Both the position numbers and the translations under genes were made by a program. Positions 3,584 through 17,387 of a DNA stretch of 64,000 nt are shown here, piece after piece; position 1 is the stretch's first letter, and each line of letters starts with the position of its first letter. The notes below the pieces were generated by a model. It was given only the letters and a program-made list of their open reading frames with translations. It searched no databases and was not told where the DNA came from. The stretch is from Iodidimonas sp. SYSU 1G8 (GTDB taxonomy: Bacteria; Pseudomonadota; Alphaproteobacteria; SMXS01): assembly GCF_039655775.1 (NCBI RefSeq), contig NZ_JBBYXJ010000001.1, positions 310,001 to 374,000 of the forward strand. The letters are read 5' to 3'.

Positions 3584-4258
3584 TCAGATCAGTTGCCCGA
3601 TGCCGAACAGCAGCACCGAGATCGCGGCGCTGATCCTGATCGCTCTTTCCATTTTCACGACGAGGGGATCGGCTCGAGGGCCGGTTCTGATCTCGATCCC
3701 GGGCAACAGGGCCGTGACCGCCACCGCGAACGAGCCGGCGATGATCGCCAGAGAGGTGACGACAAGATCGGGTGTGACGTTCCAGGTGGCGATCCTGTAG
3801 AGGAGCCTGACGCCGAACAGCAGGATGGCGCCGAGCGCGAGGCCCAACAGCCCGGCGCCGATCAGTCCGTCCATCGGGAAATGCCAGGGACGGTGCTTGC
3901 TCAGAAAATCATAAATGGTGCCGGCTGCTGATTCCGCCCAGTAGGGGCTGTCGGCCTCGACGAAGACACCGGGTCCGCTATTGTAAAGATTGACGAGGAT
4001 CCGCCGCTGTCCCTCGGGCCTCTTCGTGCTGTCCCGCGCGGTGATGCTGACCATGTGCAGGCTGGGGGACAATCCCGGATTCGCCAGGAACTCGGCGGGA
4101 TCGTTGGCTCGGATTGTTGAAAGGCCACTGCTGTCCTTGATCCGGATTTTCACCGGGTCCGGCGAGAATTCGTCAGCGATCAGGGCGACCAGTTGCTCGA
4201 ACTCGGCGCGTCCCATCCGGACAGGCGGCAGGTTCTTGCTGATGGTGACACTGTTCAC
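3584..4258 (-). CDS. Unrecognised membrane protein, three C-terminal helices
   Basis: I do not recognise this 224-residue protein. The first 125 residues are soluble, mixed alpha/beta in composition. Three hydrophobic helices then follow, roughly 130-155, 165-187 and 205-222, with basic residues between them. No catalytic motif is evident. It lies 114 bp downstream of the GNAT-fold gene on the same strand, so it could be the last gene of the sphingolipid-side operon or an unrelated neighbour. GC content and codon use look like the surroundings. Confidence 0.6.
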   Translation of the reverse strand: MNSVTISKNLPPVRMGRAEFEQLVALIADEFSPDPVKIRIKDSSGLSTIRANDPAEFLANPGLSPSLHMVSITARDSTKRPEGQRRILVNLYNSGPGVFVEADSPYWAESAAGTIYDFLSKHRPWHFPMDGLIGAGLLGLALGAILLFGVRLLYRIATWNVTPDLVVTSLAIIAGSFAVAVTALLPGIEIRTGPRADPLVVKMERAIRISAAISVLLFGIGQLI

Positions 4259-4372: not shown

Positions 4373-5524
4373 TTACAGCGGCTTCTCGTACATCCGGTAG
4401 GTTTTGTAGTGCCGGCACAGGATCATTTCGAGAATGCGCTGCATGGGCACGTTGCTCTCGAGAATCCACGAGAGTTCCGCTCGGCGGTAGCCGACCTCGC
4501 GTGTCGTGGCCTGGCGAATGGTCTCGATCAGCAACAGCGCCATCGACGCGCCGGCCAGCGTGCCCTGGAACTGCTTGCGCACGCCCATGAGCGGCACACG
4601 GCACTGGGTCGGCGACTTGACCAGCAGGCGCCAGGCCAGCTTGGCCCAGCCGAAGGGCAGCATGTTGCCGTTGAGGTCGCGGGCCGCCTGGTTGATGTCG
4701 GGCACGGTCAGCATGAAGGCGGTCGGGACGCCTTCCCACTCGGCGATCATGCAGCCCTGTTCCTTGATGAAAGGCTTCAGGTCGCGGCCCATCTTGTCGA
4801 TCTCGGCGTCGGTCATGGGGATGTAGCCCCAATTGTCGCGCCAGGCGTCGTTGAAGATGTCGATGATGATCTTCAGCTCGTCGGCGAAGTTCTTCTTGCT
4901 GACCCGGCGCAGCTTAAGCTTGTCCTGCTTGCGCGCCTTGTCGAGCAGGCGCTGCACGTTGCCGGGGAATTCGTGGGTTATGTTGAGATCGTACGCCCAG
5001 AGATCCTGGACCTTGGCATAGCCCATGGCCTCGACATGCTGGCCGTAATAGGGGCGGGCATGGCCCATGAGCAGGCGCGGCGGCTCGTCGAAGCCCTCGA
5101 CCAGCAGGCCGGATTCCTCGTTGATCGAGGGGCTGAACGGACCCAGCACGCGCGTCATGCCGCGGGCGCGCAGCCAGTCTTCGGCGGCATGGAACAGGGC
5201 GTCGAACACCAGCGGGTCGTCGACGGCCTCGAGGAAACCGAAATGGCCGGTGCCCGGTCCCTGGTGCTCCTGCGCCAGCCGGTCGACCTGCGCACTGATC
5301 CGCCCGACGGGCTTGCCGTCGATGCGGGCCAGGAAATAGGCCGCCTCGGCATGCTGGAAGAAGGGGTTCTTGCGCCGGTCGAGCATTTCGCGGCGCTCGA
5401 AGCGCAGCGGCGGCGTCCAGTAGGGATCGTCCCGGTACACCGTCCACGGAACACTGATGAAGGCCTCGAGATCGGCCTTCGTTACCACCTCGGCGACGTC
5501 GACGCCGCCTTCACCGAACCCCAT
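4373..5524 (-). CDS. bcerS: GNAT-fold acyltransferase, candidate bacterial ceramide synthase (bCerS)
   Basis: A 383-residue protein with a GNAT-like N-acyltransferase build: PWTVYRDDPYWTPPLR near the N-terminus, AAYFLARIDGKPVGRISAQ as the central strands, GHFGFLEAVDDP, then LGPFSPSINEESGLLVEGFD and a second acetyltransferase-like half. In Caulobacter crescentus a GNAT-family protein (bCerS) acylates 3-ketosphinganine and is encoded at one end of the sphingolipid locus; this gene has the same length class and the same place relative to spt and cerR. It starts 5 bases after the hydroxylase gene. The assignment is by fold and context; family members are often annotated only as N-acetyltransferase. 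Confidence 0.7.
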   Translation of the reverse strand: MGFGEGGVDVAEVVTKADLEAFISVPWTVYRDDPYWTPPLRFERREMLDRRKNPFFQHAEAAYFLARIDGKPVGRISAQVDRLAQEHQGPGTGHFGFLEAVDDPLVFDALFHAAEDWLRARGMTRVLGPFSPSINEESGLLVEGFDEPPRLLMGHARPYYGQHVEAMGYAKVQDLWAYDLNITHEFPGNVQRLLDKARKQDKLKLRRVSKKNFADELKIIIDIFNDAWRDNWGYIPMTDAEIDKMGRDLKPFIKEQGCMIAEWEGVPTAFMLTVPDINQAARDLNGNMLPFGWAKLAWRLLVKSPTQCRVPLMGVRKQFQGTLAGASMALLLIETIRQATTREVGYRRAELSWILESNVPMQRILEMILCRHYKTYRMYEKPL

Positions 5525-5529
5525 GGGCT

Positions 5530-6333
5530 TCAGGCCGCTTCGCGCTGGCGGCGGTCGCGGGGCGTTCCCGTATCGACACCGCCGGAGAGCTTGGCGACCC
5601 AGGGATACCGAGAGGCCATGCCTTCGTCATATCCCAGGTTGAACACGGTCGCGCTTTTCGGCGGACGGTTGGCGTTGGTGTACAGGGTGCCGAACAGGCG
5701 GTCCCACATGAAGTTGGTGATGCCGAAATTGCCCTGCTCGTTGTGGAAATGGTGCGCCATGTGCTGCTGTTTCATGCGCGCCAGGATCGGGTTCTTCGGC
5801 TTGTAGGACAGATGCTCGATGCAGTGGCAGAACTCGTAGAAGCAGGTGATCACCGCGCCGGTCGCCAGGCCGAACGCCGCGCCCGGCCAGCCGGCGAGGA
5901 CGTAGCCGACGGGCATGGTGGCTGCGGCGACGGTGGGCAGGGTGGTGTAGAGCGCGCCGAACAGGATGTGCAGGTCGTGCGGATCCTGGTGGTGATCGTA
6001 ATGGATGCGCTTCCATACCGGCGCGGTCAGCGGCGATTTCGCCAGCCAGTTGCCGTGCAGGATGAAGCGGTGGATGCCGTACCAGGCCAGCGGATAGATC
6101 AGGGCCGAGGCCAGACCTGTCAGCAGGAGCGGGCCGATGGGCGCGCCGCTGCTCAGGGCATAGGCGTAGCCGGCGATGGCGACGACGATGTAGGCTTGGA
6201 TTGCATAATACTGGAAGTACGCGACGGTGAGTTCCTTCAGCGTCATCTTGTCGAGATGGTGACGCCGCCGTTTCCAGAAGCCGATCTTGATCACGATGTC
6301 TTGCGTCCTGTTCAGCCTGCCTGCATGCCGCAC
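5530..6333 (-). CDS. Fatty acid hydroxylase superfamily protein, FA2H/Scs7-like
   Basis: A 267-residue membrane di-iron hydroxylase. The histidine boxes are intact: HRFILH (88-93), HYDHH (111-115), HCIEH (170-174) and HMAHHFH (191-197), followed by GNFGITNFMWDRLFGT. The last box and its tail resemble the FA2H/Scs7 group, which 2-hydroxylates the acyl chain of ceramides, more than the sterol C4 methyl oxidases. Two or three hydrophobic helix pairs anchor it. The GTG start at 6333 is uncertain; ATG at 6246 (MTLKELTVAYF) also fits. It sits between the flippase and bCerS candidate genes, so sphingolipid hydroxylation is the likely job. Confidence 0.8.
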   Translation of the reverse strand: MRHAGRLNRTQDIVIKIGFWKRRRHHLDKMTLKELTVAYFQYYAIQAYIVVAIAGYAYALSSGAPIGPLLLTGLASALIYPLAWYGIHRFILHGNWLAKSPLTAPVWKRIHYDHHQDPHDLHILFGALYTTLPTVAAATMPVGYVLAGWPGAAFGLATGAVITCFYEFCHCIEHLSYKPKNPILARMKQQHMAHHFHNEQGNFGITNFMWDRLFGTLYTNANRPPKSATVFNLGYDEGMASRYPWVAKLSGGVDTGTPRDRRQREAA

Positions 6334-6397
6334 TATAGCACGGTCGCCGGGAAAATAGTCCTCCTCGCGGGATTATCCAACGGGAAACGCCTGCATA

Positions 6398-7969
6398 TCA
6401 GCGTTCCACCAGGAACGGCATGCGCTTGGCTAGCTTCTTGGGCACGATCAACTGGGCGTCCTCGCGGGTGAATCCGACACGCACCAGTACGACGAGGGCG
6501 ACGAGCAGGATCACGATACCCAGGATGAAATAGCCCGTGCGCCACATGCCGTTGGTCGCCGTGTAAATGGTCGCCATGATGGCGGACAGGACCAGGGCTG
6601 TTCCGATGGGGCGCAGCAGGCGGCGGTCGTAGGGCTTCAGGCCGTAGATGTAGCGGACCTCCAGGAAGCCGAGGATCGCCGAGACGTTGATGCCGCCGGC
6701 CGCGGCGATGGCGGCCGCGACCATGCTACCGCGCAGGCCGCCGCCGAACAGCTCGGGCCGGGGGATCAGGAAATAGGCGAGCAGGGCGGTGACGATGACG
6801 CCGGCCGCGGCGTTGAGAAACGGAATGCGGTATTTGCCGATCATGGCGAGGATCGAGGTCGACGGGCCCCAGGTCACTTCGAGGCTGCGGCCGATGACGA
6901 GAATGAGCAGCGCGCCGGCGCCGGCGACGAATTCGGATCCGCTCTGGCGCAGCAGCTCGTGGCGATAGCAGATCACCAGCGTCGCCATGGGAATGAAGGC
7001 GGCCACGGAAACGCGCGTGGCGAAGGCCAGCATCTCGCGCAGCTTGGCCCGTTCCTCGAGCCCGCTATTGGCGGCCGCCAGCGGCGCCAGCACGTATTCG
7101 AAGCTCTCCCGGAACACGTTGAGCACGCTGACCAGCTTGCGCGCGGCCGCATAGACGCCGGCGGCCTCGGCGCCGCGCGCACCGGGCAGCATCACGTTGA
7201 GGAAGATGACCGGCAGCCAGGAATGCCATTTCTTGGCGAAGTTGGGCAGCATCATGCTGGAAGAGTAGAACACCATCTCCTTGCCCAGGCTGGCGCCGAG
7301 GCCGGTCCGCGCGATGAGGTGCTGAAGGCCGTAATGCTTGTGCACCAGCCGGAAGGCGAAGACGGCGGTGACGGCAAGGCCGATCAGGTGCGAGACGAAC
7401 AGGCCGAGCGAGACGAAGCCGATCACCCAGAACAGCACGCCGAACACGAGCCGGAACCCCTGTTCGTAGAAGATCCGCACCTTCACCTCCGGGCCGAAGA
7501 TGCTGCGCGCCCGGATCGCGCCCGTCGCCACCTCGATCATCGACCACAGCGGTACCGCCAACGCATAGAGCTGGATGATGAGCACCAGATGCCGGGAGTC
7601 GGCCTCGTTCGCGTTAATGATGCCCGCCAGCGCCGGCGCGAACGCCGCCATGGTGATGCCGACGAGGCAGGAGATGACCAGTGAGGTGTTGACCGCGTAT
7701 TTCAGGACCCGGCCGGCGCTGACGGCGTCGGCGGTGCCCGGAATGAAGCGCTGCAGCGCCATGGTCATGCCGAAATCGGAAATGATGGCGAGCCCCTGAA
7801 CGAGGCCCCAGAGCGTCATGAACAGACCGAAGGTCTGGGAACCGTACATCTGGGTGAACAGGAAGAAGCTGACGAGCTCGATCAGCGCGCCGCTGCGGCC
7901 CAGCAGCGCCAGGCCGGCGCCGCGTGCCATCACTGCCTTTGTCGATGGGCCGGGCGGCGCCGTGGACAT
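6398..7969 (-). CDS. Oligosaccharide flippase family protein (MATE/Wzx-like)
   Basis: A 523-residue polytopic protein with 12 to 14 hydrophobic segments. FFLFTQMYGSQTFGLFMTLW and the following FGMTMALQRFIPG are typical of the polysaccharide-biosynthesis flippases of the MOP superfamily, which move lipid-linked sugars across the inner membrane. It starts 7 bases after the lptG paralogue and lies upstream of the hydroxylase. No oligosaccharide polymerase or glycosyltransferase is next to it, so a role in moving a sphingolipid or its precursor is a reasonable but unproven inference from place. Confidence 0.8.
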   Translation of the reverse strand: MSTAPPGPSTKAVMARGAGLALLGRSGALIELVSFFLFTQMYGSQTFGLFMTLWGLVQGLAIISDFGMTMALQRFIPGTADAVSAGRVLKYAVNTSLVISCLVGITMAAFAPALAGIINANEADSRHLVLIIQLYALAVPLWSMIEVATGAIRARSIFGPEVKVRIFYEQGFRLVFGVLFWVIGFVSLGLFVSHLIGLAVTAVFAFRLVHKHYGLQHLIARTGLGASLGKEMVFYSSSMMLPNFAKKWHSWLPVIFLNVMLPGARGAEAAGVYAAARKLVSVLNVFRESFEYVLAPLAAANSGLEERAKLREMLAFATRVSVAAFIPMATLVICYRHELLRQSGSEFVAGAGALLILVIGRSLEVTWGPSTSILAMIGKYRIPFLNAAAGVIVTALLAYFLIPRPELFGGGLRGSMVAAAIAAAGGINVSAILGFLEVRYIYGLKPYDRRLLRPIGTALVLSAIMATIYTATNGMWRTGYFILGIVILLVALVVLVRVGFTREDAQLIVPKKLAKRMPFLVER

Positions 7970-7976
7970 CGATCCG

Positions 7977-9080
7977 CTAAGCCTCGGTGTAGAACAGGAC
8001 CGAACTTCCCAGGAAGAAGAACAGCGCCAGCGGACTCCAGGCCGCGAGCACCGGCGGGATGGTGCCGAACTGGCCGATGGCGAGCAGCAGGTTGTCGACG
8101 ACGAAATAGCTGAAGCCGAAGGCGAGACCGCCGATGACGCGCAGGAACATGGTGCCTGACCGCTGCAGGCCGAACGCCGCCATGGCGCCCAGCAGCGGCA
8201 TCAGGATCGTACCCAGCGGGCCCGCGACCTTGTGATGCAGCCACGCGGTCAGCTTGTTGGCGTTCATCCCTTCCGCCTTGAGCTGGCCGACGGCACTGGC
8301 GAGCCGGCCGATCGGCACGCTTTCCGGGTCGATGGACAGGGCGCGGAAACGGGACGGCGGGACCTTGGTGTTCCACGCGGCGCGCGGAACGGTCTCGACC
8401 TTGGTCTGATCGACCCAGAAGCGGGTGACGTCGAACATGGTCCATTGCCCGTTGGAATAGGCGGCGAAATTGGCCGAGGTGATTTCAACGATCTTGCCGG
8501 CGTCGTCCAGCTTGTACAGCGTCACCTTGTCGAGGATGGTGCCGTCGCGTGTCACCGCCTGCACCCTGATCCGGGTATTGCCCTCGATCGCCCAGGCGTC
8601 GGCCTTGGCTGGTGGCAGATCGACGGCGCCGACCGCGAAACCGCTCGCCTGCCAGCGCTCGAACTCCTCGTTGGACTGGGTGACGATGGTCTCGTTCATG
8701 GTGAAATGGAAGATCGCGACGACGGCGCAGACGCCCATCATGGGGAAGATGATGCGGAACGAGGACAATCCCGCCGACTGCATGACCGCGACCTCGCTGC
8801 TCTGGGCCAGGGTCGTGCAGGTCAACAGGGTCGCGAGCAGGGCCGAGAAGCCGACCACGGTCGACACCATCTGGGGAAAGCGCAACACGGTGAAGCGCCA
8901 GATGGATTCCATGCCCGCGCCCGCTGGCGCCAGCACGTCGCCGCTCTGCGACAGAACATCGAGAGCCTGCATGATCAGGGCGATACCGAACAGCAGCAGC
9001 AGGAACCGGACGAGAAATGCCTTGGCGATGTATTCCAGCAGTACCGGAACAGACAGGCGGCTCTGTTGCAATCGGGTCAT
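7977..9080 (-). CDS. LptG-family permease, sphingolipid-locus paralogue
   Basis: A 367-residue LptF/LptG-family permease: three N-terminal membrane helices, a periplasmic beta-jellyroll (about residues 130-250, with the sequence around TRIRVQAVTRDGTIL) and three C-terminal helices. Canonical LptG works with LptF and LptB to pull lipopolysaccharide from the inner membrane. Its ATG overlaps the lptF stop as ATGA, so the two are coupled. The pair lies inside the sphingolipid locus and not beside lptD, surA or pdxA, where alphaproteobacterial LPS-export permeases often lie, so I expect a specialised paralogue. Confidence 0.85.
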   Translation of the reverse strand: MTRLQQSRLSVPVLLEYIAKAFLVRFLLLLFGIALIMQALDVLSQSGDVLAPAGAGMESIWRFTVLRFPQMVSTVVGFSALLATLLTCTTLAQSSEVAVMQSAGLSSFRIIFPMMGVCAVVAIFHFTMNETIVTQSNEEFERWQASGFAVGAVDLPPAKADAWAIEGNTRIRVQAVTRDGTILDKVTLYKLDDAGKIVEITSANFAAYSNGQWTMFDVTRFWVDQTKVETVPRAAWNTKVPPSRFRALSIDPESVPIGRLASAVGQLKAEGMNANKLTAWLHHKVAGPLGTILMPLLGAMAAFGLQRSGTMFLRVIGGLAFGFSYFVVDNLLLAIGQFGTIPPVLAAWSPLALFFFLGSSVLFYTEA

Positions 9081-10342
9081 GCGCCACGGGCCTCCGCGTC
9101 ATCTTCCGAACGCCGGAAGAAGCTGATTTTCTGGATGTTCTCGATGAGGAACTCCCACCCGTTCTCGATCCATGCCAGCGGCCTGGCGCCAACCCTGTGA
9201 GCGGTGGTGTGGAAGAAGAAGAACGACAGTGCGGTAAAGCCGATGAAGGGAAGGAAAAGGTTCAGCAATGTGGAGCCATCGCCCAGTCCGGCGGCCGCGG
9301 TGCCAAACTCCAGGGTCTTGTGCAGGGTCAGCAACAGGATCACGCCGACGACGAGGCCGAGTTGCTTCTGCTGGCGTTTGGGGCCGACGCCGAGGCCAAC
9401 CGCCATGAAAGGCAGCACCAGAATGGTCAGCGAACGCAACAGTCGGTCATAAAAGGCCGAGAGATAGGTCTGCGCCTCTCGCGGCTTCTGCGAGGTATGG
9501 GATTCCGACCAGAGCTCCGGCAGGGTCATTTCCCGTTCCTTGTCGCCGCGTTGACGGAACTCGGTGATCTTGGGCATCTCGAACGGATAATCGTGCTGCT
9601 TGAACGTGAACACGCGCGGCGCGGGCTTGTTGGGCTCCACGTCCACGATGGTGCCATCGCGAAGACGCATCAGGACGGTCGATCCATCCGGCGTGGCGAG
9701 AAACGATCCCTCGCGGGCCGTGATGGTGGTGACCCGCCCATCCGAACGCTCCTTCTGCGCGAAGATTCCTTCGAGTTTCTGGCCGCCATCATAGGCCCGC
9801 TCGATCCGCAGGGTGAACCCGTCGCCCAGATCGCTGTACTCACCCGGCCGGATCGACGTCCCGAACGCGCCGGACGTCAGGTCGAACAGCAGGCTCTGAT
9901 AGGAGTAGAAACTGCGCGGCTGGATGTAGCCCAGTAGGGCCACGTTTACGGCCATCAGCGCCAAGGCGAGGCACAGCGGCGCGCGCATCAGGCGGAAGAG
10001 ACCCATGCCGCCAGCCTGCATGCCCTCGAGCTCATTGGAGTTGGATAGCTTACGGAACGCCAGAAGGACGCCGAGGAGGAAGCCGAGGGGCAGGGCCAGT
10101 CCGATATATTGTGGGATCAGGTTGCCCAGCATGCGGAACACGACGCCGACCGGGCCGCCCTGATTGGCCACCATGTCGAACAGGCGCAGCATCTTCTCGA
10201 GCAGCAGCAGCATGGCGGAGACGCCGATGGTCATCAGCAGCGGGGTCATGACCTGACGCAGGATGTAAACATCGACTTTCTTGAACACGGCCGGGAACCC
10301 TTTCAGCGGATCCAGATAGATATACCAGCGATGCAGGGCCAT
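9077..10342 (-). CDS. LptF-family permease, sphingolipid-locus paralogue
   Basis: About 421 residues with the LptF signature VDVYILRQVMTPLLMTIGV near the N-terminus, then LFDMVANQGGPVG, a periplasmic jellyroll and three C-terminal helices ending at the lptG overlap. It is the partner permease of the next gene. The start is uncertain: I chose ATG at 10342, a GTG at 10288 with AAAGGG upstream gives a more usual short N-terminus, and TTG at 10405 is also open. The gene is divergent from the DUF2141 gene across a shared control region, which suggests joint regulation with the head-group genes. Confidence 0.85.
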   Translation of the reverse strand: MALHRWYIYLDPLKGFPAVFKKVDVYILRQVMTPLLMTIGVSAMLLLLEKMLRLFDMVANQGGPVGVVFRMLGNLIPQYIGLALPLGFLLGVLLAFRKLSNSNELEGMQAGGMGLFRLMRAPLCLALALMAVNVALLGYIQPRSFYSYQSLLFDLTSGAFGTSIRPGEYSDLGDGFTLRIERAYDGGQKLEGIFAQKERSDGRVTTITAREGSFLATPDGSTVLMRLRDGTIVDVEPNKPAPRVFTFKQHDYPFEMPKITEFRQRGDKEREMTLPELWSESHTSQKPREAQTYLSAFYDRLLRSLTILVLPFMAVGLGVGPKRQQKQLGLVVGVILLLTLHKTLEFGTAAAGLGDGSTLLNLFLPFIGFTALSFFFFHTTAHRVGARPLAWIENGWEFLIENIQKISFFRRSEDDAEARGA

Positions 10343-10498
10343 GCGATCACGCGGCAGCGGTTCAAGTAAAGAGACGCAGGGCGTGATTGCAATCGAATTC
10401 TGCAAACCAACATTTGGGAGAGAGCTCCAGGAGCACTACATCAACGCGTCGCCCGCGAAGTTGGTTGCGACGCGAGCCGAAAGGCAACGAGGAGAACA
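10343..10498. promoter_or_regulatory. Shared divergent control region of the sphingolipid locus
   Basis: This 156-bp gap must carry the promoters of the leftward lptF operon and the rightward DUF2141 operon. It contains the perfect 10-bp palindrome GATTGCAATC at 10385-10394 and an 8-bp perfect inverted repeat (CGCGTCGC at 10445-10452, GCGACGCG at 10467-10474). I see no convincing sigma-70 hexamer pair. Which element is an operator and which an mRNA hairpin is unknown. Confidence 0.4.
10445..10474. repeat. Inverted repeat in the DUF2141 gene leader
   Basis: Two 8-base arms, CGCGTCGC and GCGACGCG, are separated by 14 bases and end 24 bases before the ATG at 10499. It could fold in the leader RNA or serve as a protein-binding site. 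Short inverted repeats occur by chance in GC-rich DNA, so this is a candidate only. Confidence 0.35.
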
Positions 10499-11086
10499 AT
10501 GTTGACGATATCCAACGCGCGGCGCGGTGGCCTGATGGTCGCCCTGGGCCTTGTCGCTGTCCTGGCGGGCAGTCCTGCGGTCCATGCCGAGGCCGAGTTT
10601 GAAAAGGCTCCCATCCCGGAGCACCTCAAGGGCATGCACCTGTCGGGCCGCGCGCTCGAGCTGGTCGCGGGCCGCATCGATCCGTCTCGTCCGCTGGGAT
10701 ACTGCGATCCGGCCAACCAGCAGCCGGAGATCCGGGTGATCGTCCCCAACCTGCGCAACGGCAAGGGTAATCTCAGGCTCAGCCTCCATAGCGATGATCC
10801 TTCCGAGTGGGTCGGCAAGAAGAAGGGCGGCAAGCTGATACGGTTCGACGTGCCCGCCGTCGCCGGTCGCATGGAAGTGTGCATGCCGCTGCCCTACGGC
10901 AATGGAACCTATGCCGTCGGCATCTATCACGACGAAAACGCCGACGGAAAATACGGCTTTACCAGTGAAGGTTACGGGTTCTCCAACAACGCCAAGGCCG
11001 GGCTCTTCGGTCCCGCCTCCCACAAGGATGCCGCGTTCAAGACCCACGCCACTAGAACGGACGTGAAGATTGACCTCCGCTACTGA
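10499..11086 (+). CDS. DUF2141 domain protein, exported (CpgA-like position)
   Basis: A 195-residue protein with a signal peptide (hydrophobic 12-30, cleavage after VHAEA) and a DUF2141 beta-sandwich: LRLSLHSDD, then VCMPLPYGNGTYAVGIYHDE with NADGKYGF and EGYGFSNNAK. The acidic NADGK loop resembles a metal-binding turn. It should act in the periplasm or outer membrane. ATG follows GAGGAGAACA. It heads the plus-strand set with the lipid kinase and Tam41-like genes; from memory, a gene of this kind holds the same place among the Caulobacter cpg (ceramide phosphoglycerate) genes. Its activity is unknown. Confidence 0.8.
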   Translation: MLTISNARRGGLMVALGLVAVLAGSPAVHAEAEFEKAPIPEHLKGMHLSGRALELVAGRIDPSRPLGYCDPANQQPEIRVIVPNLRNGKGNLRLSLHSDDPSEWVGKKKGGKLIRFDVPAVAGRMEVCMPLPYGNGTYAVGIYHDENADGKYGFTSEGYGFSNNAKAGLFGPASHKDAAFKTHATRTDVKIDLRY

Positions 11087-11193
11087 CCCCCTTGAGGGCC
11101 TCGTAACAGGATAGTGAGTGTCTTGCCGTTTGACCGGCGGCGGTTTGATGCATAAGTTCTGCGGCTTTCCAGCGCCTCAGGGGAAGGGTCCCG

Positions 11194-12168
11194 GTGACTC
11201 TCGACGAAATCGGTGTCATCAGCAATCCGGGCAGCACCCGGATGAACAAGGAACTCAAGGTCTTTCGCCGCGCGGTGGAGTCCTATCCCGGACTGTCGTA
11301 TCGGGAACTGGCATCGATCGACGACATGCCTTCGATCCTGGCCGATTTCGCCGCCAAGGGTGTGCGGATGGTCATTCTCAGTGGCGGTGACGGCACGCTC
11401 CAGGCGGGCATGACCGCGCTGATCACTCATGATCCTTTCCCCGATCCCCCATTGATGGCGATCCTGCCGGGCGGACGCACCAACATGGTCGCCGAGGCGC
11501 TCGGGATGTTCGGCTCGCCCGACGATTGCCTGCGGGATGTGGTGGATGGCGCGCTGAAAGGGCCGCGCGGCCTGAAGACCGTGGACCTGCCGTTCATCCG
11601 GATGGAACTGACCCCGGGCGCGCCGCCGGTTTACGGTGCGTTCTTCGGCGCGGCCACCATCGTCCGGGGGATCGAGTTCTGCCGCCGTGTGGTGTACCCG
11701 CTGGGCCTGCCCAATTTCCTGTCGCATACCGTGGCGATCATCTGGCTGATCCTGCTGGCGATCCTGCCGTTCAAGAGCCGCAATTCGCCCATGCGGCGCG
11801 ACCCCATGTTCGTCAATTTCGGTGACTCCACCCCGGAATCCAAGGCGTACATGATCGTGCTGGTCACGACCCTGAACCGGCTGATCCTGGGCCTGTCGGC
11901 CGCCTCGAACGTGGGCGAGGGATCGCTGCGCTACACGAGCATCGAATACAATCTGTGGGCCGTGTTGCGCGCGGCGCGCACCTTCCTGTTCGGCCGGCCC
12001 TCGACCAAGCTGGTGCGCGGCCTCGTGCGCCGCCGCATGTACAGCGTGGAAATTCGGACCGGCAGCCCGGTCACGCTGGATGGCGAATTTTTCCATCCCG
12101 ATCCGGCATTGCCGGTTCGCCTCGAGGCGACCGAAGCGTTCCGCTTCGTCCGGCTGGACGACGAATGA
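11194..12168 (+). CDS. cpgB: Diacylglycerol/sphingoid kinase family protein, candidate ceramide kinase
   Basis: A 324-residue lipid kinase. ILSGGDGTL (62-69) is the ATP-binding glycine motif, and LPGGRTNMVAEALG (91-104) the following conserved loop; an N-terminal INPxS-like turn appears as ISNPGSTR. Unlike YegS or DgkB it has a hydrophobic run at about 179-193 (HTVAIIWLILLAILPF) that may dip into the membrane. The start is GTG after AGGGGAAGGG. It overlaps the next gene by 4 bases. A Caulobacter enzyme of this family, CpgB, phosphorylates ceramide and is encoded beside spt. Lipid kinase is firm; ceramide as substrate is inferred from place. Confidence 0.8.
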   Translation: MTLDEIGVISNPGSTRMNKELKVFRRAVESYPGLSYRELASIDDMPSILADFAAKGVRMVILSGGDGTLQAGMTALITHDPFPDPPLMAILPGGRTNMVAEALGMFGSPDDCLRDVVDGALKGPRGLKTVDLPFIRMELTPGAPPVYGAFFGAATIVRGIEFCRRVVYPLGLPNFLSHTVAIIWLILLAILPFKSRNSPMRRDPMFVNFGDSTPESKAYMIVLVTTLNRLILGLSAASNVGEGSLRYTSIEYNLWAVLRAARTFLFGRPSTKLVRGLVRRRMYSVEIRTGSPVTLDGEFFHPDPALPVRLEATEAFRFVRLDDE

Positions 12169-13118
12169 CGTCCGAGCACGCGGAAGTCCGGACCGTGATG
12201 GGCCGTATCCGCGACGAGTTGGGGCAGCCGCTGTTTCCCGCCGCCGATGCCGCCGCCCGGGATTTGCGCGACCGGCATGCGGGCACCGCCGCGATTCTGT
12301 TCTATGGCTCCTGTCTGCGGGCGGGCACGGACGAGGACAAGATCCTCGATTTCTACATCCTGGCGGATGATCTGGCCGCCGCGAATGGCAGCGGCGTCCT
12401 CGGCTATTTCAACCGGGTGCTGCCGCCAAACGTGTTCTATCGCGAAACCCCGTTCGAGGGCCGTGTCGTCCGCAGCAAATACGCGCTGATGTCCGTGGAC
12501 GGATTCCGGGCCGCCATGCAGGCGGATCATCTGAATCCCACCTTCTGGGCCCGGTTCGCGCAGCCCTGCGCCATCGCGTGGACACGGGACACGGCGGTCG
12601 AGGACGTGATCGTCCGGTCGGTGTCGCAGGCCGTGGTCACGGCCGTGCGCAGCGCCGTGCCGGTGCATCCTTCGCCATTCACGGCGGATGAATTGTGGTC
12701 CCACCTGTTTCAGATGACCTATGGCGCCGAGCTGCGTTCGGAGAACGCCGCGACCAAGGGCGGCGAAATCTTTCGCGAGTACGCGGAGCGCTATCGGGCC
12801 CTGACCGGTCCGGCGTTGCGGGCCGGGGGCTTCGAGGCGCAGGATGATGGCGGCGTGTTCCGTGTCGAGGTGCCGTCGTCCCATATCCGCGCGGAAGCAC
12901 GGCGCTGGCGCTGGCGGCGCGTGCAGGGCAAGACGCTCAGCGTCCTACGCCTGCTCAAGGGCGCTTTCACCTTCTCCGGCGGGCTCGATTATCTGGCATG
13001 GAAGATCCGGCGCCATTCGGGCGTCGAGATCGACATCGCGCCGTGGCAGCGGCGGCATCCCGTGATCGGCGGTCTCGTCCTGATGCTGCGCACCCGCAAG
13101 AGCGGGGCGTACCGGTAG
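12165..13118 (+). CDS. Tam41-like nucleotidyltransferase candidate
   Basis: A 317-residue protein usually left as hypothetical. I read a nucleotidyltransferase core: ILFYGSCLRAGTDEDKILDF has the GS turn (48-49) and an acidic pair leading into DFYILADD. This is followed by LPPNVFY, RSKYALMSVDGF, an MTYGAELRSE block, and a C-terminal LRLLKGAFTFSGGLDYLAWK block. The same order (YGS-V-F, DFIFGV, KYGV-S, MGDPRMK, a K-G-L-L-T-A-G tail) is what I remember of mitochondrial Tam41, which makes CDP-diacylglycerol from phosphatidate and CTP. It overlaps the lipid kinase as ATGA, so it could activate the kinase product, such as ceramide phosphate. Homology is judged by eye. Confidence 0.6.
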   Translation: MTSEHAEVRTVMGRIRDELGQPLFPAADAAARDLRDRHAGTAAILFYGSCLRAGTDEDKILDFYILADDLAAANGSGVLGYFNRVLPPNVFYRETPFEGRVVRSKYALMSVDGFRAAMQADHLNPTFWARFAQPCAIAWTRDTAVEDVIVRSVSQAVVTAVRSAVPVHPSPFTADELWSHLFQMTYGAELRSENAATKGGEIFREYAERYRALTGPALRAGGFEAQDDGGVFRVEVPSSHIRAEARRWRWRRVQGKTLSVLRLLKGAFTFSGGLDYLAWKIRRHSGVEIDIAPWQRRHPVIGGLVLMLRTRKSGAYR

Positions 13119-13122
13119 CGGA

Positions 13123-14331
13123 TCAGGCCGCCGGCTTGCTCAGCACGCTGTTGGAACGGGCAAGCCGCTCGAACGTATCGACCACCTTGGCGATTTGCTC
13201 TGGCGTATGCGCGGCGCTCAGGCTGCAGCGAAGCAGGTTGAGGCCTTGCGGCGTTGCCGGCGGCATCGCCAGGTTGACGTAGACGCCGTTGATCAGCAGC
13301 TGTTCCCAAAGACGCACCGCCATGTCGCGGTCGTCGATCTTCACCGCGACCACCGGGCTGACATCGGCGCCCAGATTGAAGCCGGCGCGGCTCAGGCCGT
13401 CATGCAGCTGCGTGGCATTACGCCACAGCTTCTCGCGGTGCTGCGGCTCGGACTTCAGGATTTCGACCGCCTGAAGCGCCGAGGCGACGACCGACGGCGG
13501 CAACGAGGCCGTGAACATGTAGGGGCGGGCGGCAAGGCGGAGAATTTCGAACTTGGGATGGTTCGACACGCAGTAGCCGCCGATGGTGCCGACGCTCTTG
13601 CTGAAGGTGCCGACGACGAATTCCACGTCGTCCATCACGCCGGCTTCCTGCACGACGCCGCATCCGGTGTCGCCGAACACGCCGATGGAATGGGCCTCGT
13701 CGACCATCAGCGAGGCGCCGTACTTGTTCTTGACCGCGACCAGTTCCTTCATGGGCGCCTTGTCGCCCAGCATGGAATACAGGCCTTCGACGATGATCAG
13801 CACGTTGCCGCCATCCGTCCCGAGGCGGCGCAGGCGCTTGTCCAGATCGTCGGGGTCGTTGTGCTTGAAACGCACGATCGTCGCGCCCGACATGGTGCAG
13901 GCGTCGTAAATGCTGGCGTGGCTGTCGGCGTCCAGCAGGATCACGTCATCCTTGCCGGCGATGGTGCCGATGGTGGCCATGTTGGCCAGGAAGCCGGTGC
14001 TGAAGACCATGCAATGGTCCGTGCCATAAAGGCCGGCGATCGCGGCCTCCAGCGCCTTGTGGCCCGTGTAGGTGCCATTGAGCACGCGTGAGCCCGTCGT
14101 GCCGGTACCGGCGGCGTCCAGCGCCGCGTGCGCGGCCGCGATGCAGCGCGGATCGAAGGTCAGGCCGAGATAGTTGTTGGTGCCGGCCAGGATGGTGCGC
14201 CGGCCCTCGATCATCGCCTCGGTGGGCGAGAGAATCTCCTCCATCACCACGTCGACGGGGCTTGCGTGTTCGATCACGATGCTCTGGCGCATCCGGATCA
14301 TCGGCTCGAATTTGTCGAACAGATCAGCCAT
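13123..14331 (-). CDS. spt: Serine palmitoyltransferase
   Basis: A 402-residue PLP enzyme of the alpha-oxoamine synthase family. It condenses serine with a fatty acyl thioester to 3-ketosphinganine, the first step of sphingolipid synthesis. TNNYLGL, the stacking His in DADSHASIYD (138), MVDEAHSIGVFG (Asp 211, His 214) and the Schiff-base Lys 245 in GTFSKSVGTIGGY are all present. The soluble length fits the Sphingomonas/Caulobacter type. Other family members (KbL, BioF, HemA) are less likely because its own acyl carrier protein gene, acyl-ACP synthetase gene and cerR lie directly upstream. It faces the Tam41-like gene tail to tail with a 4-base gap. Confidence 0.93.
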   Translation of the reverse strand: MADLFDKFEPMIRMRQSIVIEHASPVDVVMEEILSPTEAMIEGRRTILAGTNNYLGLTFDPRCIAAAHAALDAAGTGTTGSRVLNGTYTGHKALEAAIAGLYGTDHCMVFSTGFLANMATIGTIAGKDDVILLDADSHASIYDACTMSGATIVRFKHNDPDDLDKRLRRLGTDGGNVLIIVEGLYSMLGDKAPMKELVAVKNKYGASLMVDEAHSIGVFGDTGCGVVQEAGVMDDVEFVVGTFSKSVGTIGGYCVSNHPKFEILRLAARPYMFTASLPPSVVASALQAVEILKSEPQHREKLWRNATQLHDGLSRAGFNLGADVSPVVAVKIDDRDMAVRLWEQLLINGVYVNLAMPPATPQGLNLLRCSLSAAHTPEQIAKVVDTFERLARSNSVLSKPAA

Positions 14332-14347
14332 GGGCGGTTTCCGATCC

Positions 14348-14587
14348 TTACTTCTTTTCGATCAGCGTATCGACGGCATCCACGACCTGTCCGACCGTTT
14401 CCAGATCGGGCAGCATGTTCAGCGGGATGATGATGTCGAAATGGTCTTCCATCTCGGCAACGAAATCCATCACGGTCAGCGAGTCCCATTCCAGGTCGGT
14501 GGCGAACGTCGTCTCCGGAGTCACCGCGACGCCTTTCTTGTTATACGGCGCGATCAGGGTGCGGATGTCGTCCAGCGCGTTGCTCAT
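14348..14587 (-). CDS. acpR: Acyl carrier protein dedicated to sphingolipid synthesis
   Basis: A 79-residue acyl carrier protein. Ser 36 in EWDSLTVMDF is the phosphopantetheine site, in a DSL motif, and four helices are predictable. ATG at 14587 is chosen because the fold starts there; a longer open frame upstream has no homology. In rhodobacteria a specialised ACP (AcpR) delivers the acyl chain to serine palmitoyltransferase, and this gene lies 16 bases upstream of spt and downstream of cerR. Relative to FabF-type ACP it is less acidic around the serine, which fits a dedicated partner. Confidence 0.9.
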   Translation of the reverse strand: MSNALDDIRTLIAPYNKKGVAVTPETTFATDLEWDSLTVMDFVAEMEDHFDIIIPLNMLPDLETVGQVVDAVDTLIEKK

Positions 14588-14667
14588 GAATGGTCGGCCT
14601 TGCGTTCTTGTCTCCGAAGCGCGGGTTATAGCATTGGTGCGGAATGAAGCCCAACCCACGATTGCCG

Positions 14668-15600
14668 TCAGGGCAGGTCTCCGCTGGCTTCATACCAGCG
14701 CCGTGTGTCGGGCAGGCCGCGCTCGGCGTCGATCAAGGCGCGCCAGCCGCAGGCCTCCAATGTCCGGTCGCGGCACACCCAGTCGGGAAAGGACAACTCA
14801 CGTGCCTTGCCGGGGGTCAGCATGGGGACGCCCCCGGTCAGCATGCTGGCGATCCTGACCATGCCGCCGACGCTGCCCAGGGCGATGGGCGGCAGAAACA
14901 GCGGCCTGTGCCATCCGGGGCGTCCGGCGATCAGCGCCAGCACGTCCACCAAGGCATATCCGCCGTCCTTGCCGTCATGCACGTCGGCGGTCTTGCCGGA
15001 AAGGCCTGGCAGGCGGAGGGCGGCCTCGAGAGCGCCGGCCAGATCGAGAACGTGGATGAGGGAGCTGCGATGCCGTGGACTGCCGGGCAGGAGCGGCCGC
15101 CGCGTCGCCGCCGCCTTGAAGAACACCAGTGTCTCGCGATCGCCCGGCCCATAGACGGCCGGCGGACGCAGGATGGTCCAGTCCAGCCCCTCTGTCCGTG
15201 TCAGCAGATCCTCGGCGGCGGCCTTGCTGGCGGCATAGGCCGACAGATGCCGCTCGCGCGCCGCCAGGGACGACAGGTAAACAAACTTGACCGGCCGACC
15301 GGCCAGGGCGGCGATCAGGCGGCGGGTGCCGTCCACATTCACGTCAAAGAAATCGGCGTCGCGCCGGGCCTTGATGAGGCCGGCCACGTGAATGACCGCG
15401 TCCGTGTCATCGACAAGGGCGGCAAGCGCGCGGTCCTGGGTAAGATCGCCCTCGACCCAGCGCACGCCGTCTCGTGCCGGCATGGCGCGGCGGGTGAGGG
15501 CGCTGACGCTGTATCCCTGGCCAACCAGGTGATCGAGGGTATGGCCGCCGACAAAGCCGGTCGCGCCGGTGAGCGCGACCCGTTTGCCGCGGGGGTCCAA
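14668..15600 (-). CDS. cerR: Extended SDR, candidate ceramide-pathway reductase CerR
   Basis: A 310-residue NAD(P)-dependent epimerase/dehydratase-type protein. The Rossmann motif TGATGFVGG is at 11-19, the active-site pair is in SAYAASKAAAE, and LRPPAVYGPGDRE is the usual extended-SDR loop. In Caulobacter, CerR of this fold reduces the 3-keto group to give dihydroceramide. I set the start at TTG 15600, only 5 bases after the acyl-ACP synthetase stop, because the Rossmann fold begins at once and no ATG or GTG is near. It lies between the synthetase and ACP genes in one operon. Confidence 0.83.
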   Translation of the reverse strand: MDPRGKRVALTGATGFVGGHTLDHLVGQGYSVSALTRRAMPARDGVRWVEGDLTQDRALAALVDDTDAVIHVAGLIKARRDADFFDVNVDGTRRLIAALAGRPVKFVYLSSLAARERHLSAYAASKAAAEDLLTRTEGLDWTILRPPAVYGPGDRETLVFFKAAATRRPLLPGSPRHRSSLIHVLDLAGALEAALRLPGLSGKTADVHDGKDGGYALVDVLALIAGRPGWHRPLFLPPIALGSVGGMVRIASMLTGGVPMLTPGKARELSFPDWVCRDRTLEACGWRALIDAERGLPDTRRWYEASGDLP

Positions 15601-15605
15601 GGTGC

Positions 15606-17387
15606 TTATTGGCCCGCTGCCGCTTTCAGGGGCAGCGCGTCTTCCCAAGGATAGGGATCGCTGCCGTCCAGCGGCTCGAGCAGGCCGGACATGTAGTTGG
15701 CCCGGGCCTTCACGCGGCTGAGCTTGCCGGACGACGTCCGGGGCAGGCTGCGCGGCTTCACCAGCACGACGCGGCACGCGATGCCCACTTCCTTCTGGAT
15801 GCGTCGCTTGATCTCGGCCACCAGGCGCCCGCGTTCGTCGGCCTCGCCGACGCGGGGCTGGACCAGGATCAGGGCGACTTCCTCGTTATCGCGTCCCGGC
15901 ACTGAGATGGCGGCGCTGTCGCCCGAGCGCAGGCCTTCGATCTGCTCCACGGTCCATTCGATGTCCTGCGGCCAGTGATTGCGGCCATTCAGGATAATCA
16001 GGTCCTTGGCGCGGCCGATGATGTAGAGCGACTCGCCAATCATGTAACCCATGTCGCCGGTGTCGAGCCATCCGGCTTCGTCCAGTACGTTACGCGTGCC
16101 TTCCGGGTCCATGAAATAGCCGGACATGACCGACGGCCCGCGGACATAGATCTTGCCCACATGGCGTTCGCCGACGGTTTCACCTTCCTCGTTGCGGATC
16201 TGCAGGTCGTATTCCGGCAGCGGCACGCCACAGTTGACGACTTCGCGGGTCTTGACCGTGCGGTTGGTCGGCGGCGCGGCGCGGTGTTCGAGCGACAACA
16301 GGCCCTCGTCGACCTCGTCGATGACGATCCCCTGACCGACGGGCATGAAGCTGACCGCCAGCGTGCATTCGGCCAGGCCGTAGCTGGGCAGGAAGGCCTT
16401 TTCGTTGAAGCCAGCCGGGGCGAAGGTCTCGGCGAATTCGCGCATGGAATCGGCGCGGATCATCTCGGCGCCCAGGCCGGCGATGCGCCACGCGCTGAGA
16501 TCGAGACCGGCCACCGCTTCCGGCTTCACGCGGCGCGCGCACAACTCGTAGCCGAAGGTGGGGCTGTAGGTGACGGTGGACCGGTTCCGGCTCATCAGCT
16601 CCAGCCACAGCATGGGCCGGCGGGCGAAGAACTCGGTCGGCAGATAATCCGCCGACACCTGGATGGTCACCAGGGTCAGCATGGCGCCGACGAGGCCCAT
16701 GTCGTGGTAGAAGGGCAGCCAGGACATCATCCGGTCGCCCTCGCGCACCCCGACGCCATGGACGCCATTGCCGCGGCAATTGGACATCACCGAGGTCTGG
16801 GTCACGGCGACGCCGTGAGGAAACCGGGTGCTGCCGGAAGAATATTGCAGATAGCAGATATCACCCGGACCCTGCGGCGTCAGGGCGGGATTGCCCTCGG
16901 GCATGGTGTTCAGGTCTTCGCTCGAGACCACCAGCGCGAGGTTGAGGCCTTCGGCGGCCTGAAACAGCAGGTCGGCCATCGCCGCCGGGGCGATGGCGGC
17001 GGTGGCGTGGCAGCTGATCATCTGCTTGTTGAGCTGTTCCACATAGCCATCCTTGCCGCCGAACGAGGTCGGCAGCGGCAGGGGAACCGGCAGCAGGCCA
17101 GCATACTGGCAGCCGAAGAACGCGGCGATGAAATCGGAGGTGGTATCTGCAATGAGCGCGACCCTGGATCCGCGCTCGATCCCCGCCGTGATCAGGCGCC
17201 GGGCAATACCAAGCGACCGGTCGCGCAAGTCGGCGAAGGTCAGGACATCGACCAGGGTGCCGCGTGCGGAATAGAAATTGAAACCGCGTATGCCGCGCGC
17301 AGCATAGTCCAGCGCGTCGAGCAACGTTGCAAAGTCGGCCTTGCGACGTGGCAGGCCGGGATCATCCGTCGGTGTTGGTGTCAGCAT
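15606..17387 (-). CDS. aasR: Fatty acyl-AMP ligase type acyl-ACP synthetase
   Basis: A 593-residue adenylate-forming enzyme. YLQYSSGSTRFPHGV is the ATP-binding P-loop region, SYGLAECTLAVSF the A5 motif, WLDTGDMGYM the A7/A8 region, and LPRTSSGKLSRVKARA carries the catalytic Lys near the C-terminus. Length and the RFPHGV variant fit the fatty acyl-AMP ligase group, which loads carrier proteins rather than CoA. As first gene of the operon with cerR, acpR and spt it most likely charges AcpR with a fatty acid. The symbol follows the rhodobacterial acyl-AcpR synthetase; substrate choice is inferred. Confidence 0.83.
   Translation of the reverse strand: MLTPTPTDDPGLPRRKADFATLLDALDYAARGIRGFNFYSARGTLVDVLTFADLRDRSLGIARRLITAGIERGSRVALIADTTSDFIAAFFGCQYAGLLPVPLPLPTSFGGKDGYVEQLNKQMISCHATAAIAPAAMADLLFQAAEGLNLALVVSSEDLNTMPEGNPALTPQGPGDICYLQYSSGSTRFPHGVAVTQTSVMSNCRGNGVHGVGVREGDRMMSWLPFYHDMGLVGAMLTLVTIQVSADYLPTEFFARRPMLWLELMSRNRSTVTYSPTFGYELCARRVKPEAVAGLDLSAWRIAGLGAEMIRADSMREFAETFAPAGFNEKAFLPSYGLAECTLAVSFMPVGQGIVIDEVDEGLLSLEHRAAPPTNRTVKTREVVNCGVPLPEYDLQIRNEEGETVGERHVGKIYVRGPSVMSGYFMDPEGTRNVLDEAGWLDTGDMGYMIGESLYIIGRAKDLIILNGRNHWPQDIEWTVEQIEGLRSGDSAAISVPGRDNEEVALILVQPRVGEADERGRLVAEIKRRIQKEVGIACRVVLVKPRSLPRTSSGKLSRVKARANYMSGLLEPLDGSDPYPWEDALPLKAAAGQ

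Follow-up and report, generated by a model that had tools for sequence, protein, structure and literature searches.

A 13 kb gene cluster at positions 4373-17387 of the window, by which we mean the whole 64,000-nucleotide stretch analysed here (Iodidimonas sp. SYSU 1G8, contig NZ_JBBYXJ010000001.1, positions 310,001 to 374,000), carries genes for ceramide synthesis, lipid phosphorylation, hydroxylation and transport, including the LptF and LptG permeases. An initial sequence-only reading had described twelve genes in tight operons with 4-base overlaps, and their coordinates, families and spacing agree with our analysis. The genes form three blocks, one on the minus strand (lptF, lptG, flippase, hydroxylase and cerS), one on the plus strand (DUF2141, kinase and Tam41-like gene) and a further one on the minus strand (acyl-AMP ligase, cerR, acp and spt). 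Overlaps of 4 bases join lptF to lptG and the kinase gene to the Tam41-like gene, while most other junctions measure 4 to 16 bases and the hydroxylase-flippase gap 64 bases. The twelve genes are:

4373..5524, minus: cerS, bCerS candidate, acyltransferase of tandem GNAT fold (AlphaFold2 model against PDB); adjoins spt/lptFG in many genomes
5530..6333, minus: FA2H/Scs7-like fatty acid hydroxylase (PF04116, E 2e-21); beside cerS in many clusters
6398..7969, minus: MOP-superfamily flippase candidate (Polysacc_synt PF01943, E 1e-10)
7977..9080, minus: lptG2, permease (PF03739; TIGR04408, 286 bits, cut-off 240)
9077..10405, minus: lptF2, permease (PF03739, E 3e-64; TIGR04407, 223 bits, below the cut-off of 230)
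10499..11086, plus: DUF2141 protein with a signal-like N-terminus (PF09912, E 1e-17); also in the cluster of genome G116
11194..12168, plus: lipid kinase in the position of the ceramide kinase cpgB (DAGK_cat, E 4e-13; GGDG motif)
12165..13118, plus: Tam41-fold cytidylyltransferase in the position of cpgC (AlphaFold2 model and Foldseek)
13123..14331, minus: spt, serine palmitoyltransferase (NF047599, 627 bits; PDB serine palmitoyltransferase, 499 bits)
14348..14587, minus: acpR, acyl carrier protein (ACP) (PF00550, E 2e-9; DSL motif); reading frame opens at 14659
14668..15597, minus: cerR, ceramide reductase candidate (PF01370, E 2e-28); reading frame opens at 15777, start near 15597 estimated
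15606..17387, minus: aasR, fatty acyl-AMP/ACP ligase (NF006624, 821 bits)

The start of acpR is probably the ATG at 14587, judging from the sequence, and that of lptF2 is ambiguous between a TTG at 10405 and an ATG at 10342. Shortly downstream of cerS and in the same orientation (window 3584-4258) lies a reading frame of 224 aa, possibly a membrane protein, with no Pfam match.

The components of Caulobacter-type ceramide synthesis are all present, namely Spt, a dedicated ACP, an acyl-ACP synthetase, CerR and a GNAT-type CerS. It had been proposed that Spt be checked for grouping with BioF or Kbl, and both identities were ruled out by profile and PDB scores: the protein exceeds the serine palmitoyltransferase cut-off of 500 bits and scores far above the BioF (333) and Kbl (320) profiles, and its closest PDB relatives are serine palmitoyltransferases (2x8u), with Kbl at 233 bits. 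The bCerS candidate has no Pfam match; the top PDB matches of its model (pLDDT 71) are tandem GNAT proteins (E 6e-12). The cerR product is a short-chain dehydrogenase/epimerase, and its gene is conserved between acp and the acyl-AMP ligase across clusters. The closest solved relative of the hydroxylase is yeast Scs7 (E 4e-14), placing it among the fatty acid 2-hydroxylases (Scs7/FA2H). A hydroxylase gene beside cerS is frequent in alphaproteobacterial clusters, and from the neighbouring genes we infer that ceramide is its substrate.

The kinase, which matches YegS weakly, and the Tam41-fold gene occupy the positions of cpgB and cpgC, an orthology assigned by position only. The Tam41-like protein has no relative by sequence in Pfam or PDB, and it was the fold search with its model (pLDDT 79) that gave Tam41 (6ig4, E 3e-7); a GS...D...D motif is conserved. 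As its gene overlaps the lipid kinase gene within a ceramide cluster, ceramide-1-phosphate is its likelier substrate, and the modelled fold in the cpgC position suggests production of CDP-ceramide from ceramide-1-phosphate. Such a route would need a phosphotransferase, of which none was found in the window. Profiles built from other clusters detected neither the CpgA kind (taken as CDP-alcohol phosphotransferase) nor the CpgD kind (NTP transferase) within the window or any cluster of its order; the search did not extend to other parts of the genome. CpgD and CpgA are the pair that would mark a CPG2 head group, and the locus is not classed as a CPG2 maker; its head group may be one phosphoglycerate unit or another moiety. 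The view of a Caulobacter-type cluster, in which ceramide synthesis genes stand with a hydroxylase, transport functions and a kinase plus cytidylyltransferase that would build a phospho head group, is thus borne out by families, folds and gene order, but the description of the locus as complete is not, since genes of the CpgA and CpgD kinds are absent from the window and the genome's only LptC is encoded elsewhere.

Other alphaproteobacterial clusters have an NTP transferase of the CpgD kind adjoining cerS (17 loci), CDP-alcohol phosphotransferases near the kinase or hydroxylase (12 loci) and, in the vicinity of lptF or cerS, a calcineurin-like phosphoesterase (18 loci). The phosphoesterase, too, is absent from both the window and its order's clusters. 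Several clusters (L138, at 4975-6189 and 9790-10914; L123, L085 and L098) contain a pair of CDP-alcohol phosphotransferases, the first next to the kinase and the second next to the hydroxylase or lptG, an arrangement that would be compatible with separate enzymes for CDP-ceramide and CDP-glycerate. An extra LptFG-like pair (weak match, 76-82 bits) lies beside a CDP-alcohol phosphotransferase-like reading frame in an spt-negative genome (G030:C2:494000-508000, L107).

The genome (3.92 Mb in two contigs, rated 100% complete) has no LptF_LptG matches other than lptF2 and lptG2 of the 13 kb cluster. The two had been described as paralogues; they are the sole copies, and a second pair accompanying a canonical one is ruled out for this genome. 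Outside the cluster are a single LptC gene, grouped in line with those for LptA and LptB, and one LptD, so that all parts of the exporter of lipopolysaccharide (LPS), LptF, LptG, LptB, LptC, LptA and LptD, are present. The usual alphaproteobacterial order, seen in LpxC-positive genomes, is pepA-lptF-lptG-lptD-surA; in seven genomes, the window's own and those of six relatives, the facing pepA and lptD genes are separated by 94 to 231 bp that hold no lptFG. The flippase turned up by direct search in clusters of the window's order only.

The genes for lipid A, by comparison, were not found. LpxC was not detected in the window's genome, with Caulobacter LpxC-positive as control, and a joined query of E. 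coli proteins found none of LpxA, LpxB, LpxD, LpxK and WaaA in seven genomes of the order, giving only weak short matches in a hexapeptide-repeat-like stretch. The positive controls, Acetobacter sacchari and Tateyamaria, yielded all five. Lipid A synthesis, the pathway for an LPS cargo, is therefore missing from the genome, and the cluster permeases with their partners, which probably work like Lpt, are not classed as an LPS exporter.

This arrangement recurs. All ten genomes examined of the order, which make up one family, carry spt, as do 23 (at E 1e-100) of a sample of 153 alphaproteobacterial genomes. LpxC was assessed in 38 genomes, of which 18 were positive (11 with spt, 7 without) and 20 were spt-positive and LpxC-free, comprising eight members of the window's order, eleven genomes of other families and Nitrosomonas MAG_42. 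In 19 of these 20, lptFG is found solely beside cerS, spt, the kinase or the hydroxylase, and the pepA/lptD-linked lptFG is present in 18/18 genomes with LpxC versus 0/20 without it. A Fisher test of lptFG site against LpxC gives 3e-11 by genome and 5e-8 with one genome per family, deeper relatedness being ignored. A second lptFG pair lies in the sphingolipid cluster in 10 of the 11 LpxC-positive, spt-positive genomes. In MAG_42 (L141, 9858-13955) cerS, an NTP transferase gene and the sole lptFG are direct neighbours, and no lipid A genes were found.

In a tree of 45 LptF plus LptG pairs, one branch with bootstrap 100 parts the sphingolipid-linked pairs from all canonical ones. LPS-free and LPS-bearing genomes are intermixed inside the sphingolipid-linked clade, with at least four changes of LPS state, a count that is read off the lptFG tree rather than a species tree and is a rough guide to the number of losses. 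Among the basic LptG residues compared, only positions 40/41 differ between the clades: canonical alphaproteobacterial copies have basic residues there, and those of the sphingolipid clade mostly have Gly, Asp or another non-basic residue. These positions touch the 4'-phosphate and core of LPS (PMC6744409), but because a K40E/K41E double mutant grew normally (PMC5548808) the difference is only suggestive. The E. coli LptG basic residues K34, K62, R133 and R136 were unusable as cargo markers, being absent in canonical alphaproteobacterial copies too, or uncertain in alignment. Three members of the order (G001, L110 7862-15079; G003, L112; G002, L115) carry an additional lptFG pair next to an additional hydroxylase and cerS; this lptFG pair forms its own long-branched clade within sphingolipid-linked LptFG.

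That the only LptF and LptG of a genome free of LPS genes are encoded in a sphingolipid cluster suggests that the machinery for LPS export has been turned to sphingolipids. We consider it probable that LPS has been lost in this bacterium and that the locus makes a phosphorylated, probably hydroxylated ceramide, which the Lpt bridge conveys to the outer membrane. The acyl-AMP ligase would load a fatty acid onto the dedicated ACP, Spt would condense the ACP-borne acyl group with serine, and the GNAT enzyme would attach the second acyl chain, with CerR carrying out the reduction and the FA2H-like enzyme the hydroxylation. The kinase would then form ceramide-1-phosphate, which the Tam41-fold enzyme would activate, most likely to CDP-ceramide, before head-group addition. 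The putative flippase would take either the lipid or an intermediate to the other side of the inner membrane. Since in Caulobacter Spt and bCerS are located in the cytoplasm and CerR in the periplasm (PMC11087976), and the kinase uses ATP, the site at which the flippase would act can be given only tentatively; its direction is likewise a prediction. LptF2 and LptG2, with LptB encoded elsewhere, would extract the lipid, and LptC, LptA and LptD would deliver it to the outer membrane. We also lean, with less confidence, towards a broader reading, in which several proteobacterial lineages have independently lost LPS and re-dedicated the whole Lpt bridge to sphingolipids by way of an old second LptF2G2 encoded with the ceramide genes, which makes LPS loss survivable.

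Several observations weigh against this interpretation. The organism is known here from its genes, and both lipid and transport are predictions. The lack of CpgA- and CpgD-type genes in the window means that the head group cannot be named. Genome G066 (C1:1500000-1519900, L125), complete on one contig, has spt, acp, cerR, the acyl-AMP ligase and cerS, and neither LpxC nor any LptF or LptG was found anywhere in it; sphingolipid-making cells that lack LptFG thus exist and must use another export route. Genome G075 has spt and cerS, and its sole LptFG is the pepA/lptD-linked pair. This LpxC-positive genome (L127, L090) also has the hydroxylase, while the kinase, the Tam41-like gene and a second lptFG were not found, and its product is perhaps ceramide alone or a glycosphingolipid. 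The Lpt cargo could also be another glycolipid. A cell that has lost LPS might use the bridge for such a lipid, or for a glycosphingolipid made by genes elsewhere, the link to ceramide phosphate being one of co-regulation only; the incomplete head-group set, the predicted rather than observed cargo and the order members whose second lptFG lies beside a second cerS-hydroxylase pair, such that cargoes may differ, are all compatible with this. We regard it as unlikely, as lptFG adjoins ceramide genes in all but one of the 20 LPS-free genomes, Nitrosomonas included.

The two explanations that retain LPS fare worse. One is that of an ordinary sphingolipid locus of the Caulobacter type whose LptF2G2 serves, in a cell that contains LPS, as a dedicated second pair. 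Gene order and content do agree with the published Caulobacter locus, but this reading is already contradicted by a genome with neither a second LptFG nor lipid A enzymes, and we give it very little credence. It is similarly improbable, in our judgement strongly so, that lipid A enzymes too diverged for detection still make LPS for export by the single LptFG: the retained Lpt bridge and an LptG that passes TIGR04408 would be expected in such a cell, but six enzymes are missing together where the positive controls worked, the LptFG pair falls in the sphingolipid-linked clade, and the usual lptFG site is empty.

According to a 2024 study, flippases and lipid transporters for bacterial sphingolipids had yet to be identified (PMC11087976), and transport by LptC2/F2/G2 in Caulobacter was proposed and left untested (PMC11324152). 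The single-LptFG pattern supports that proposal, and lipid A-free genomes whose only LptFG lies in the ceramide cluster are natural single-transporter strains, in which no LPS route confounds the question of transport. A possible reason for repeated LPS loss follows from the pattern as well, and it makes the automatic label 'LPS export permease' misleading in lipid A-free genomes of this kind. For the cpgC step, whose mechanism has been called unidentified (PMC13228409), the Tam41 fold of the gene in that position suggests a testable reaction. In the open-access literature, with subscription journals mostly outside the search, we found Lpt transport of sphingolipids proposed only in PMC11324152 and did not find the LPS-free single-LptFG pattern.

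The Caulobacter crescentus locus, CC_1168-CC_1152, reads aasR, cerR, acpR, spt, cpgC, cpgB, cpgA, CC_1158, CC_1157, lptF2, lptG2, cerS, CC_1153 and cpgD, and also has lptC2 and a potential flippase (PMC11324152), which is CC_1166; the names CpgA-D are from PMC12275187. The window shares aasR, cerR, acpR, spt, a cpgC-position gene, a cpgB-type kinase, lptF2, lptG2 and cerS, arranged almost alike, also has a flippase candidate, and is collinear with that locus, with gaps, from spt to cerS, a likeness judged by family, fold and gene order rather than protein to protein. Unlike Caulobacter, the window lacks lptC2 in addition to the CpgA and CpgD kinds. Its hydroxylase gene adjoins cerS, whereas the Caulobacter gene reported for hydroxylation, CC_0202, is located elsewhere (PMC11324152), and its genome is without the lipid A pathway or another LptFG, whereas Caulobacter has LpxC. 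The cluster type is therefore known, and its role as the sole source of LptFG in an LPS-free cell is the new part. The canonical LptB2FG-LptC-LptA-LptD exporter shares its permease family and its LptB, LptC, LptA and LptD partners with the system described here, but LptF2G2 falls in a separate clade and the LPS genes are missing from the window's genome. The Tam41-like protein has its fold and nucleotidyltransferase motif in common with the mitochondrial Tam41 CDP-diacylglycerol synthase, at 14% identity. A lipid A-free counterpart is the betaproteobacterium Nitrosomonas europaea, in which nearly all lipid A genes are missing, a loss noted together with its chemolithoautotrophic lifestyle and with sphingolipids unmentioned (PMC3087551). 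Nitrosomonas MAG_42 keeps one lptFG pair beside cerS, and this row may bear on that earlier unexplained loss of lipid A genes in N. europaea.

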